Shown piece after piece: positions 10,422 to 39,312 of a DNA stretch of 64,000 bases. The stretch is from Rhodospirillaceae bacterium (lineage in GTDB: Bacteria > Pseudomonadota > Alphaproteobacteria > UBA6615), in contig PASR01000014.1 in assembly GCA_002713365.1 (NCBI GenBank), positions 1 through 64,000 of the forward strand, given 5' to 3'. The notes beneath the pieces were generated by a model. That model worked only from the letters and a program-made list of their open reading frames with translations, was not told where the DNA came from and did not search any database. The position numbers and the translations under genes are program-made. Within the stretch, counting starts at the first letter, position 1, and each line of letters opens with the position of its first letter.

Positions 10422-11687
10422 ATGAATAATTTTTTAATTAAAATAACTATTCTAACGTTATTTGTTTTTTATCCCTCAATCTCTTCAGCTTCAGGAAATG
10501 GAGAAACATTTCGTCAATTAGAGCTCTTTGGTGATATATTTGAGAAAGTTCGAAAATTCTATGTTGAGGATACTAATGATAAAAAACTCATTGAATCAGC
10601 TATAAACGGAATGCTGCAATCACTTGACCCTCATTCAAGCTATTTAAATGAGGACAGTTACAGTGATATGAAGGTTCAAACTAGAGGAGAGTTTGGGGGC
10701 TTAGGAATAGAAGTTACTATGGAACAGGGGTTTGTGAGAGTTGTATCTCCTATAGATAATACTCCAGCCGCTCGTGCAGGGCTTGAGACTGGGGATTTTA
10801 TTACTCATTTAGATGGTAAACCAGTACTTGGTATTAATTTAGCTGAAGCAGTGGATAAAATGCGCGGTCGAGTTGGGTCAGATATTAAGTTGACTATTCG
10901 TCGAGAAGGAAAAGATCCATTCGATGTTGTAATTACGCGTGCTATTATTCAAATACAATCCGTACGTGGGCGTGCGGAGGATAAAATTGGCTATCTACGT
11001 ATTACGTCGTTTAATGACAAAACATATAGTGGACTTTCACGTGAGATTAATAAATTAAAAAAAGAATTAGATGATAATATGCATGGTTTAGTTCTTGATT
11101 TAAGGCGTAATCCAGGTGGGTTACTTCATCAGGCCATTAAAGTATCCGATGCATTTCTAGAGCGTGGTGAAATTGTTTCAACAAGGGGAAGAAACAATAA
11201 AGGATCGAAGCGTTTTAATGCTCGGTCGGGAGACTTAATAAATGGTCTACCAATGGTTGTTTTGATAAATGGTGGTTCGGCTTCAGCCTCTGAAATTGTT
11301 GCTGGAGCATTACAAGACCATCGTAGGGCCGTGATAATGGGAACTCAATCATTTGGTAAAGGTTCAGTGCAGACAATTATGCCAATATCAGGACATGGAG
11401 CTATGCGCCTGACTACAGCATCCTACTTTACCCCTAGTGGAAGATCTATACAAAAAACTGGTATTACGCCAGATATAGAGGTTCAGCAGGTCAAAGTAGA
11501 GACTACTGGTAAAAAAATTCGTCTAAGAGAAAAGGATTTAAGAAATGCTCGAGATGGAGAGAAACTTGCACCTAAACCATCTAATCCGCAAATTAATAAA
11601 GCTACGAAGACTAGTGACTATCAATTAAATAGGGCTATAGACCTACTCAAAGGCATATCATTATATAGTATATCTACTACTAAATAA
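10422..11687 (+). CDS. ctpA: S41-family C-terminal processing peptidase
   Basis: A 421-residue periplasmic protease that trims or degrades proteins from their C-termini. Residues 1-23 form a signal peptide (NNFLIKITILTLFVFYPSISSA). A PDZ domain spans about 90-170. The peptidase domain carries the catalytic serine in GGSASASEIVAGAL near 287 and the lysine in SFGKGSVQT near 312. The C-terminal 60 residues are basic and poorly conserved. Position before rppH is conserved in Alphaproteobacteria. Confidence 0.94.
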   Translation: MNNFLIKITILTLFVFYPSISSASGNGETFRQLELFGDIFEKVRKFYVEDTNDKKLIESAINGMLQSLDPHSSYLNEDSYSDMKVQTRGEFGGLGIEVTMEQGFVRVVSPIDNTPAARAGLETGDFITHLDGKPVLGINLAEAVDKMRGRVGSDIKLTIRREGKDPFDVVITRAIIQIQSVRGRAEDKIGYLRITSFNDKTYSGLSREINKLKKELDDNMHGLVLDLRRNPGGLLHQAIKVSDAFLERGEIVSTRGRNNKGSKRFNARSGDLINGLPMVVLINGGSASASEIVAGALQDHRRAVIMGTQSFGKGSVQTIMPISGHGAMRLTTASYFTPSGRSIQKTGITPDIEVQQVKVETTGKKIRLREKDLRNARDGEKLAPKPSNPQINKATKTSDYQLNRAIDLLKGISLYSISTTK

Positions 11688-36897: not shown

Positions 36898-37298
36898 AAA
36901 CTTTTTCTCCATAGCTTTTAACTAATTAGCAAAGCTCATAAAAAAACAAGCGTCTTAGCTTGGTTGAATAATTGCCGCTCATTATAGAATATATATAATA
37001 AAGCGCCGACTAATCCAGTACTAAACCAGTATAGAGTCATAGATTTTTTAGACTGGGAGGATATTTTCGTCAATTGCAGTGATCTTAATTATTGAAATTT
37101 TTAATATTAATTTATTTATCTTTTTAATTAAGCTTATGGAATGCATCTGTGGAAAACCTGTGGAGGAACTGTGTTTATAATTACTATTTATGCACAGAAA
37201 AATGATATTTTACCATGATTTTAGATTGCTCAAATGCATTAAAAAATTAGATGATAGTGAGTGCATGCGTGGGCATGACGACTGGCCATTAATCTTTT
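36898..37298. other. Intergenic region with DnaA-box-like cluster (possible oriC)
   Basis: About 400 non-coding bases upstream of sdhC. 37085-37138 is almost pure A/T (8 G+C among 60 bases in 37081-37140, by hand count). Directly after it lie TGTGGAAAA (37148-37156), TGTGGAGGA (37159-37167), TGTGTTTAT (37170-37178) and TTATGCACA (37188-37196). The last is a perfect match to the DnaA-box consensus TTATNCACA, and the first is a one-mismatch box on the other strand. An A+T-rich unwinding-like tract next to clustered boxes is the layout of bacterial origins. A reverse-strand TATAAT at 36982-36987 may belong to the sdh promoter. dnaA, hemE or parAB are not nearby, so the origin call is tentative. 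Confidence 0.35.
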
Positions 37299-37327
37299 TT
37301 GTAAATTACCGCTTGCGGGTTTATAAA
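37299..37327 (+). promoter_or_regulatory. Sigma70-type promoter of the large noncoding RNA
   Basis: TTGTAA (37299-37304), 17 bases, then TATAAA (37322-37327). The spacer contains a perfect palindromic element CCGC-TT-GCGG (37309-37318). The expected start, six to seven bases downstream, coincides with the first RNA hairpin at 37333. No coding gene follows for 1.3 kb. Confidence 0.55.
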
Positions 37328-37332
37328 AATTA

Positions 37333-38228
37333 AAGACTGTTGCCCGAGGGGGCGTCTTGAAATGGTTAATGGAAGTTTATTAAGAAAATAGTCCTAGTCT
37401 TCGGACATTAGGGTTATGGGATTGATAAATAAGGTTGGCAGAAGGTTAGGTTCTTCGGAATCCTTACCTCGGGAAGGCTTTCTGCGCCGGGCTATAGCGG
37501 AAACGAAGCGTTTGCTCGTTTTGAAGATGTTAATAGCTTTCGGTATGTCTATACCGATCCCGGTGATGTTAGATCAAGCTTTGGTCTTAGGAGTAAAGCT
37601 GTTTAGCAGTTTCGGGTGAAGTGGGTGAATTGTTCAACGACCTTTCGGGGTTTATTGGAGGTTACTTCAGACAACCGAGGATGGATATAAGTTGCTGCTT
37701 TGGTGGCTCCTCGTGCCAAAGATCTAAGGTCTGAGGCAAATTTTTTCTCTGTAGTTTTGGCTACGGTGTATTAAGTGAGGTTAGCAGATTAAATGCTTAG
37801 GCTTTTTCTGTTAACTGCTGAGAGAGACAGCGTTTCGTTTTAAGGCTCTCGCCGGCTGTAAAAATGAGATGTAGCCTGGTAACCCGATTAGTTCCTACGT
37901 GAATTAGTTAGGAAAAAGGCAGAAGTGGTAATTTTGGTCCATGGGCTCGTGATTTGCTGGTTTTCCTATGATGATGGTGTAAAGCCGTGATCATGGTGGC
38001 TATTAATAGGAGATTATGTATCGGCCAGGGATATGTTAGTCTCAGATATGTAGTTATAGAGCTAAGCAGATAGCAATTGCATCGTTTAGTTAATATTAGA
38101 AATTAATTTCTAATATTACTAAACAACTGGTCAAAAGTGTGAGGGGAGTGATCTCTAAACTCAATCGACCAGGAAAGCGTCAGGCGTCACGGGCTCCGCG
38201 TCCATGAACCTGGCGCTTTCTTTTTTTT
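37333..38228 (+). ncRNA. Large structured noncoding RNA (~895 nt), class not recognised
   Basis: A 0.9 kb block, far richer in G+C than its flanks (34 of 60 bases in 37441-37500), bounded by a promoter and a strong terminator and without a credible protein. Hairpins visible by eye: AAGAC/GTCTT enclosing GCCC/GGGC (37333-37358); CCTAGTC-TTCG-GAC..TAGG (37393-37412); a TTCG-capped stem near 37450; AAACGA/TCGTTT (37501-37521); TCGGTAT/ATACCGA (37540-37557); CTTTGG/CCAAAG (37698-37721); TTCCTA/TAGGAA (37892-37914); AGCC..TGATCA..GGCT (37983-38001); an 18-bp stem with one bulge (38084-38124); CTGGTC/GACCAG (38127-38172). GAGAG/CTCTC and ACAGC/GCTGT (37822-37859) interleave as in a pseudoknot. It lacks the conserved cores of RNase P RNA, tmRNA, SRP RNA and 6S that I know. 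Confidence 0.65.
38173..38228 (+). terminator. Strong intrinsic terminator
   Basis: GAAAGCGTCAGG (38173-38184) pairs with CCTGGCGCTTTC (38209-38220) over twelve positions with a single G-T wobble, followed immediately by eight T. No protein gene ends upstream, so it terminates the large noncoding RNA. Confidence 0.9.
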
Positions 38229-38679
38229 AATTCTGGGAATTACTTGGGATAATATTTTATAGCCATTATTCATAACAAAAAGGGGTCTAGAATTATTTCC
38301 AGACCCCTTCATTGTAGGCGTCAATATTAAATGCTCCGCATCCAAGTACTTATCTGTTACCTGTTATCAGCGCTCCTTCGCGTCGGTCAATAATTTTTTA
38401 TGGGAAATTTATATTTATATTTTTGAGTAAACTTAAAAAGAAAAATATAATCTAATTTTACTACTAAAATATTAAAGAATGGATCCTAATGTCAGTAATT
38501 TAATAAAATTATTCATTTAGTGGCAATATTTTGTTATTTATTTTAGAGATCAAATAATTAATTTTAATGAATGTTTCTTTTGTTAGATGGTCTTTTATGA
38601 GATGAAATAATCATTTGTGAGTTATATTTTATATTAATAATTTGGTGATTTAAATGCTAAACTCTTTCAAAGTTATATC
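38229..38679. other. Intergenic stretch between the large ncRNA and the LysE-like gene
   Basis: About 450 bases without a protein gene. The left part holds a 9-bp GC-rich hairpin (38280-38309) and a G+C-rich patch (38326-38390) that together look like a short reverse-strand RNA gene. The right part (38400-38679) is very A+T rich with nothing recognisable apart from the presumed promoter region of the LysE-like gene. Confidence 0.5.
38275..38356 (-). ncRNA. Candidate short reverse-strand RNA with its own terminator
   Basis: On the reverse strand a possible promoter TTGACC (38390-38385), 16 bases, GATAAC (38368-38363) precedes about 80 bases ending in a hairpin. The hairpin pairs AGGGGTCT (38281-38288) with AGACCCCT (38301-38308), and a five-T run follows on the reverse strand. 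No reverse gene lies upstream to need this terminator. The -10 element is weak, so the call is tentative; the hairpin might instead simply block transcription. Confidence 0.35.
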
Positions 38680-39312
38680 TTGACCGACTTAATAATCATA
38701 AATGGCTTTATTTTTGGCTTAGTTTTAGCCGCTCCTGTTGGGCCGGTGGGTGTTCTTTGTGTCCAACGTACGTTGTCAGAAGGTCGGATGCATGGTCTGT
38801 TATCTGGGCTAGGAGCAGCTGTCGCTGATGCAATTTATGGTGCAATTGCCGCATTTGGAGTTAGTGCGGTCCAACTTTGGATCGTTGACCACCAGTCTAG
38901 TCTGCGAACTATAGGTGGAATTGTTTTGCTATTACTGGCTGCTAAAACCCTGCTTGTGCGTTCTAATAGAAATAACCAAAAGAATGTAGGAAAGCTCCAT
39001 ACAGAGAGTTTATTGCAGGATTTTATCTCTACTTTTTTATTAGCTATTACAAACCCAGTTACTATGCTTACTTTTGCTGGTTTATTTGTAACCCTTGGCG
39101 CAACTGATGTAGGTGATTCTGTCAATAATGCCGCACTACTAGTGTTTGGTGTGTTTATAGGTTCTGCTCTTTGGTGGTTCGCATTGGCATTTACAGCTAA
39201 TTTGGCTAGACCGTATCTTGATGGTGGCTATCAAAAATGGGTTGCTCGAATTTCTGCAGCTATTCTGATTAGTTTCGGTGTTTATGCATTATTAACTGCC
39301 CAGTTTTATTAA
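38680..39312 (+). CDS. LysE-family amino-acid exporter-like protein
   Basis: A 210-residue membrane protein with about six hydrophobic segments. LAAPVGPVGVLCVQRTLSEGRMHGLLSGLGAAVADAIYG is the LysE/RhtB family signature. Members export amino acids or related compounds; the substrate is unknown. Start is the TTG at 38680, since no ATG gives a family-like N-terminus. It stands alone downstream of the noncoding region. Confidence 0.85.
   Translation: MTDLIIINGFIFGLVLAAPVGPVGVLCVQRTLSEGRMHGLLSGLGAAVADAIYGAIAAFGVSAVQLWIVDHQSSLRTIGGIVLLLLAAKTLLVRSNRNNQKNVGKLHTESLLQDFISTFLLAITNPVTMLTFAGLFVTLGATDVGDSVNNAALLVFGVFIGSALWWFALAFTANLARPYLDGGYQKWVARISAAILISFGVYALLTAQFY

Follow-up and report, generated by a model that had tools for sequence, protein, structure and literature searches.

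The long RNA gene between sdhC and LysE

Within the window (the 64,000-nt stretch of DNA analyzed), the segment bounded by sdhC (Sdh_cyt, on the minus strand) and by a LysE gene (38680-39312) holds an inverted pair of DnaA boxes, a conserved promoter-like element, a long structured noncoding RNA that closes with an intrinsic terminator, and a convergent gene for a small RNA (sRNA) (Table 1). The 5' ends given for both RNAs are estimates from sequence conservation. A first-pass annotation had placed here a discrete long structured RNA of unknown class, with its own terminator, at 37333-38228; that part of its reading stands, and its promoter and 5' end, the latter off by about 70 nt, do not. 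It had also overlooked the DnaA-box pair (37148-37196) and the convergent sRNA (about 38356-38278).

Table 1. Features of the locus, in window coordinates
Feature	Position	Strand	Remarks
DnaA box TTTTCCACA (reverse), first of the inverted pair	37148..37156	-	matches TTWTNCACA
DnaA box TTATGCACA (forward), second of the pair	37188..37196	+	matches TTWTNCACA
Conserved promoter-like element TTGCTC ... GATAGT	37226..37258	+	aligned as TTGCc/t ... cATAnT, 17 loci
Long structured noncoding RNA	37262..38228	+	~970 nt; 5' end predicted from conservation
Invariant CTCGCCGGC hairpin element in the long RNA	37844..37857	+	identical at 17/17 aligned loci
Hairpin with invariant loop TATCGGCCAGGG in the long RNA	38013..38037	+	constant in aligned loci save 1-2 stem letters
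Long perfect hairpin	38084..38124	+	in relatives, sequence replaced and pairing kept; one subgroup without the hairpin
3' terminal hairpin (12 bp) and U8	38173..38228	+	intrinsic terminator; most conserved domain
sRNA-complementary site	38182..38204	+	AGGCGTCA at 38182-38189; GCTCCGCGTCCA at 38193-38204; exposed pentaloop UCCGC
Convergent small RNA, ~79 nt	38278..38356	-	conserved at 18/18 loci; predicted transcription start
sRNA core UUGGAUGCGGAGC and UGACGCCU; sRNA terminator	38345-38333 and 38323-38316; 38310-38279
sRNA promoter TTGACC-N16-GATAAC	38363..38390	-	conserved in 18 loci

Several lines of evidence bear on the nature of this block. As had been claimed for 37333-38228, it has no credible protein, the longest open reading frame (ORF) being 67 aa. 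In the aligned long RNA loci, gap lengths are not multiples of three (8/80, 2/90, and 0/32) and the substitutions lack codon periodicity, and because of these gap lengths and this absence of codon phase a coding function is excluded. The suggestion that the block is an unrecognized small protein gene or an mRNA leader, which could draw on the spurious ORFs present in the GC-rich relatives, therefore has a negligible probability: none of these ORFs is conserved, the gaps would shift the reading frame, and, as regards a leader, the intrinsic terminator precedes the next gene, and the neighbors differ between families.

The segment 37333-38228 folds at -308.7 kcal/mol, against -258 +/- 6.7 kcal/mol for its shuffles (z -7.5), and the G+C contrast that had been reported for the region (34/60 and 8/60) is correct. 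The terminator, too, is as first described: its stem pairs 38173-38184 to 38209-38220 (12 pairs), and eight T follow at 38221-38228. Homologous loci are found widely within the alphaproteobacterial family of the window: synteny of the long RNA is kept in 18/24 genomes, and blastn matches its 3' end in 17 of the 23 other family genomes, with the named matches being marine Alphaproteobacteria MAGs (e.g., MarineAlpha12_Bin1) and Rhodospirillaceae bins. Every one of these family loci with both ends readable is flanked by sdhC, at 1.1-1.3 kb, and on the opposite side by pdxY and/or LysE.

When aligned, the long RNAs display invariant blocks alternating with variable hairpins, and the hairpin with the TATCGGCCAGGG loop extends to the divergent genome G003 and, as ACCGGCCAGGGGTGC, to G004. 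The 18 sequences were split into subgroups A, B, and C of 6, 7, and 5 members, respectively, for which RNAalifold recovers 99, 56, and 58 covarying pairs versus means of 53, 21, and 25 in refolded column shuffles, with energies below those of the shuffles at z -15, -20, and -19. All 18 loci taken jointly give 74 covarying pairs versus 30 in shuffles (maximum, 42; z -12), and canonical pairing, at about 92%, drops to about 40% with slid partners. Compensating base changes in homologues are thus found across the 18 loci (z -12 to -20), and, as judged by comparison of these sequences, the block is a real gene for a long structured RNA.

This RNA falls outside the known classes. In the window, cmscan returned nothing in the region at the gathering score and only chance-level matches at E<=5, an outcome in keeping with the first-pass annotation; Rfam 15 (GOLLD, ROOL, OLE, and all others) gave no match over the RNA in the homologues at E<=1 or 0.5; and a scan of nine divergent or other-family loci found nothing across the RNA. 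RNase P RNA and tmRNA, both set aside at the outset, are indeed encoded elsewhere in the genome of the window, the former (RF00010) at G000:C12:181612-182008 and the latter (alpha-tmRNA, RF01849) at C12:201905-202233 and on C9. The portion of the literature covered, including keyword matches in genome-wide ncRNA surveys, holds no matching earlier description in alphaproteobacteria. The giant RNAs GOLLD, ROOL, and OLE (PMC12286853) resemble it in size class, in dense structure, in the lack of a protein, and in a function that is not obvious; it differs from them in having no Rfam match, in being chromosomal and vertically kept, and in possessing a DnaA-box promoter, a dedicated convergent sRNA, and a body of about 140 to about 970 nt. 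A phage origin was rejected because viral contigs contain no exact match to the 22-base loop motif, and a plasmid origin because blastn found no match to the f65 version in plasmids.

Two side observations came from the same scans. The alpha-tmRNA occurs twice with equal score (G000:C9:14912-15240 and C12:201905-202233), as a duplicate or through assembly redundancy. Further, RF02800 (Rp_sR47, Rickettsia sRNA47) matches the window at 11100-11404 on the minus strand with 71 bits, above gathering; this match lies antisense within a ctpA-type S41 peptidase ORF (10422-11687, plus strand) and probably reflects conservation of the protein gene, not an sRNA.

DnaA boxes upstream of the long RNA

The promoter first assigned to the RNA, TTGTAA-N17-TATAAA (37299-37327), can be read in the sequence, but the relatives do not keep it and it falls within the transcript; conservation places the 5' end near 37262 and not near 37333. 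Counterparts of the conserved promoter-like element, of the TTGTTGC...ATAtC type, are seen in several other families, and the 5' hairpin downstream of it (GTGCATGCG...GGCATGAC) is kept at all loci. Upstream of this element is a block, CTGTGGAAAACCTGTGGAGGAACTGTG...TTATGCACAG, which contains both DnaA boxes; at 16/18 family loci both are present in inverted orientation with a spacing of exactly 40 bp. The upstream blocks, 2.34 kb in all, contain 34 such boxes, and the other 56 kb of the same loci contain none. With boxes counted across families at <=1 mismatch to TTATCCACA, a cluster lies upstream of the RNA in 14/14 divergent or other-family loci, and pairs 40-41 bp apart recur in f113, f65, and one f68 locus. 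From the boxes themselves, we infer that DnaA acts at this locus.

DnaA boxes suggest a replication origin, a candidate that GC skew rules out: on a 1.17-Mb contig of a relative (G005:C3), the skew minimum is at about 400 kb and the locus at 1060 kb; the window contig likewise has no GC-skew minimum at the locus. CcnA of Caulobacter crescentus is a 182-nt RNA located at the origin and presumably activated by CtrA (PMC8959179). Like CcnA, the long RNA is an alphaproteobacterial ncRNA with DnaA boxes nearby and a potential link to cell-cycle regulation; unlike it, the long RNA has a partner sRNA, and neither the origin location nor the length of about 182 nt is found at the locus, which GC skew places away from the skew minimum and whose RNA measures about 970 nt.

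Another parallel is offered by datA, DARS1, and DARS2 of Escherichia coli (PMC4585315, PMC10950094), which share with this locus a DnaA-box cluster away from the origin at a conserved chromosomal place; the locus differs from them in that its boxes precede the promoter of a conserved structured RNA. Loci of the datA/DARS type promote DnaA-ATP hydrolysis or nucleotide exchange and carry IHF/Fis sites. It could be argued that the DNA itself is the functional entity, as a DnaA-binding locus of the datA/DARS kind or as an origin, with transcription being secondary. The invariant box pair and its fixed 40-bp spacing are consistent with such a role, as is the report that, in E. coli, transcription beside datA governs datA occupancy (PMC10950094). 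We regard this as unlikely, in that GC skew on both the relative and window contigs argues against an origin, and the covarying RNA structure, which extends over about 900 nt, and the complementary sRNA would be left unexplained.

A convergent small RNA complementary to the terminator

The sRNA gene is convergent with the long RNA gene and does not overlap it. Its promoter region is near-invariant (TTTGACCGAcGCGAA...TTGATA) and keeps a constant distance of 50-51 nt to the core at 18/18 loci; the family core itself, UGGAUGCGGAGC...UGACGCCU, is retained in 18/18 loci, and in the sRNA terminator the sequence changes and the pairing is maintained among the 18 loci. This core can base-pair with the loop of the long RNA terminator and with the 5' arm of its stem, and at 22/22 loci this terminator-loop site is the best sRNA-pairing window of the long RNA. 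For the window pair, the co-fold of the sRNA with the 3' domain beats the separate folds by 4.5 kcal/mol. Loop and core change in a compensatory fashion, with CUCCGC/GCGGAG in f1 and f8 (UCCGC with GCGGA holding for most of f1 and for f8) and CCCGC/GCGGG in G003, f65, and f113. Such conserved and compensated complementarity between the two RNAs is one mark of an antisense-controlled pair, another being an effect of the small RNA on the level or processing of its long partner.

A covariance model (CM) of the sRNA built from the family only (R2) recovers the sRNA in G003, G012, and f113 (E 6e-6) and weakly in f65. In the divergent family genome G012 (L102 3006-3138), the sRNA adjoins pdxY, and another gene takes the place of the adjacent long RNA.

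One alternative role for the sRNA is in trans, on mRNAs, with the long RNA serving as its sponge or decoy. The strong and conserved complementarity at the terminator loop would fit this, as would G012, where the sRNA is retained and no long RNA adjoins it. Against it, the 12-mer complement GCTCCGCRTCCA has no site outside the two RNA genes in six genomes (G000, which is that of the window, G001, G002, G010, G016, and G018), a result that applies to the full 12-mer, so that shorter seeds may exist; in genomes beyond those six, extra 12-mer sites are at control level. A sponge would also have no need of a structured body, and we consider this role rather improbable.

In the ColE1 RNA I/RNA II and CopA/CopT systems, a small dedicated RNA recognizes a long RNA by loop pairing. 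The locus shares with them the combination of a long RNA, a small dedicated RNA, and loop pairing, and it differs in that the genes are convergent, nonoverlapping, and chromosomal and in that the target is the loop of a 3' terminator. The parallel extends to the idea of an antisense-controlled primer RNA akin to ColE1 RNA II, which would be suited by the joint presence, at a single locus, of DnaA boxes, a long structured RNA, and its small complementary partner. That idea is very unlikely to apply, given that the site is a single chromosomal one away from the skew minimum, that the complementarity of the sRNA is to the 3' terminator and does not stem from overlap of the genes, and that the long RNA terminates instead of priming.

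Counterparts in other families and a proposed two-RNA module

A CM built on the 3' domain yields weak matches outside the family, three of which, from one genus, have the stem common to all and DnaA boxes upstream. Stem and loop patterns, each run on 385 genomes of the class, located the terminal hairpin in six additional families (f8, f23, f65, f66, f68, and f113); the reversed-pattern controls gave zero matches. Convergent sRNAs with covarying cores accompany it in three of the six (f113, f65, and f8); in f66, f68, and f23, a simple core search, with the CM applied to tested representatives, found no adjacent sRNA. The weak CM matches L089, L090, L107, L108, L110, L114, and L117 and pattern matches L135, L139, L142, and L153 were rejected as lacking the element or unsupported; the pattern matches L023 (Actinobacteria) and L036 (Microgenomatus) are without the stem and look like chance.

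The gene neighbors of the long RNA vary by family, and in the six additional families its body measures between about 140 nt and 0.6-1 kb. The f65 body, of about 140 nt, has one hairpin unit (fold z -5.2); the f113 body consists of 10.5 tandem copies of a 33-nt unit, and the f8 body also consists of repeats. In f113 and f8, the repeats form UUCG-capped tandem hairpins with paired GGAA strands, of which f65 has one copy; no tandem units were found in the window RNA. At L147 (1135-1481) and L152 (966-1487), GGAA stands opposite GGAA in the internal loops of such UUCG-capped tandem hairpins. These GGAA/GGAA internal loops have the potential for four tandem G.A pairs, and they are possibly a protein-binding module. 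Homology across the families would be carried by the ends, i.e., the DnaA boxes, the terminal hairpin, and the sRNA; because the body is so variable between families, it is uncertain that it has one function throughout.

CsrB/CsrC and RsmY/Z are built of tandem hairpins with GGA-containing elements. Tandem hairpins with such elements occur here in the f113 and f8 versions only, and in contrast to CsrB/CsrC, the GGAA strands oppose each other in internal, not hairpin, loops, and the genome of the window lacks CsrA. Might the long RNA nevertheless titrate a protein, as CsrB and RsmZ do, its repeated hairpins sequestering a regulator? The tandem arrays of f113 (10.5 x 33 nt) and f8 and the single hairpin copy of f65 lend this some appeal, which is countered by the window RNA being without tandem units and by the absence of CsrA (PF02599) from the complete genome of the window, G002, and the f8, f66, f68, and f23 members. 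Some relatives do encode CsrA; since the complete genome of the window and others are without it, CsrA is not the general ligand, and a CsrA sponge was rejected. Titration in general appears doubtful to us, with a protein other than CsrA being a possible partner.

What the genomic sequence shows, namely two genes for conserved and structured RNAs that are complementary to each other, the noncoding nature of the long RNA, and the DnaA boxes, leads us to favor, as a fairly probable arrangement, a two-RNA module wherein a DnaA-gated scaffold RNA would have its level set by a dedicated antisense sRNA. Transcription from a promoter below the inverted DnaA-box pair would yield the long, highly structured, untranslated RNA, and DnaA, on binding the boxes, would gate this transcription by replication state. 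The transcript would end in the terminator hairpin with its nearly invariant loop; the short convergent sRNA, which would be expressed from its own strongly conserved promoter, carries sequence complementary to that loop and to the 5' stem arm. We postulate a kissing contact of the sRNA with the exposed loop (YCCGC with GCGGR) that leads to opening of the terminal hairpin; the sRNA might thereby control termination of the long RNA or the stability of its 3' end, and in this way its quantity. The gain from invasion by the sRNA is modest (-4.5 kcal/mol), which weighs against this mechanism, and the sRNA gene of G012, with no adjoining long RNA, and the negative searches for an adjacent sRNA in f66, f68, and f23 speak against the module. 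The body would act as a scaffold or binding platform, because the other families shorten or expand it (to one hairpin or to tandem UUCG-capped hairpins), with both ends fixed. More tentatively, the system could be an RNA sensor of replication state, gated by DnaA, in which the body recruits or sequesters a protein and the sRNA sets the dose, with the ends kept across families and the body shortened, tandemly expanded, or rebuilt.

The two-RNA module would add to the alphaproteobacteria, in several families, a class of large structured RNA absent from Rfam, with an anatomy comprising a DnaA-box promoter, a variable body, a conserved terminator loop, and a dedicated convergent sRNA. If DnaA does gate the long RNA, replication control would be connected with a long noncoding RNA encoded away from the origin. 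The natural sizes, from about 140 nt in f65 to about 970 nt, would permit structural work on a minimal form.

Some further peculiarities were noted at individual loci. G206 has the short RNA version in two copies (L140 and L146), with the convergent sRNA seen only at L146. Within an ORF neighboring L147 (G326; 533-657) lies an 18-bp tandem repeat of 6.9 copies. The f66 copies (L088, L091, L131, and L133) are situated near rpsB, with sub- or near-threshold matches to the Rfam "rpsB sRNA" on both sides.
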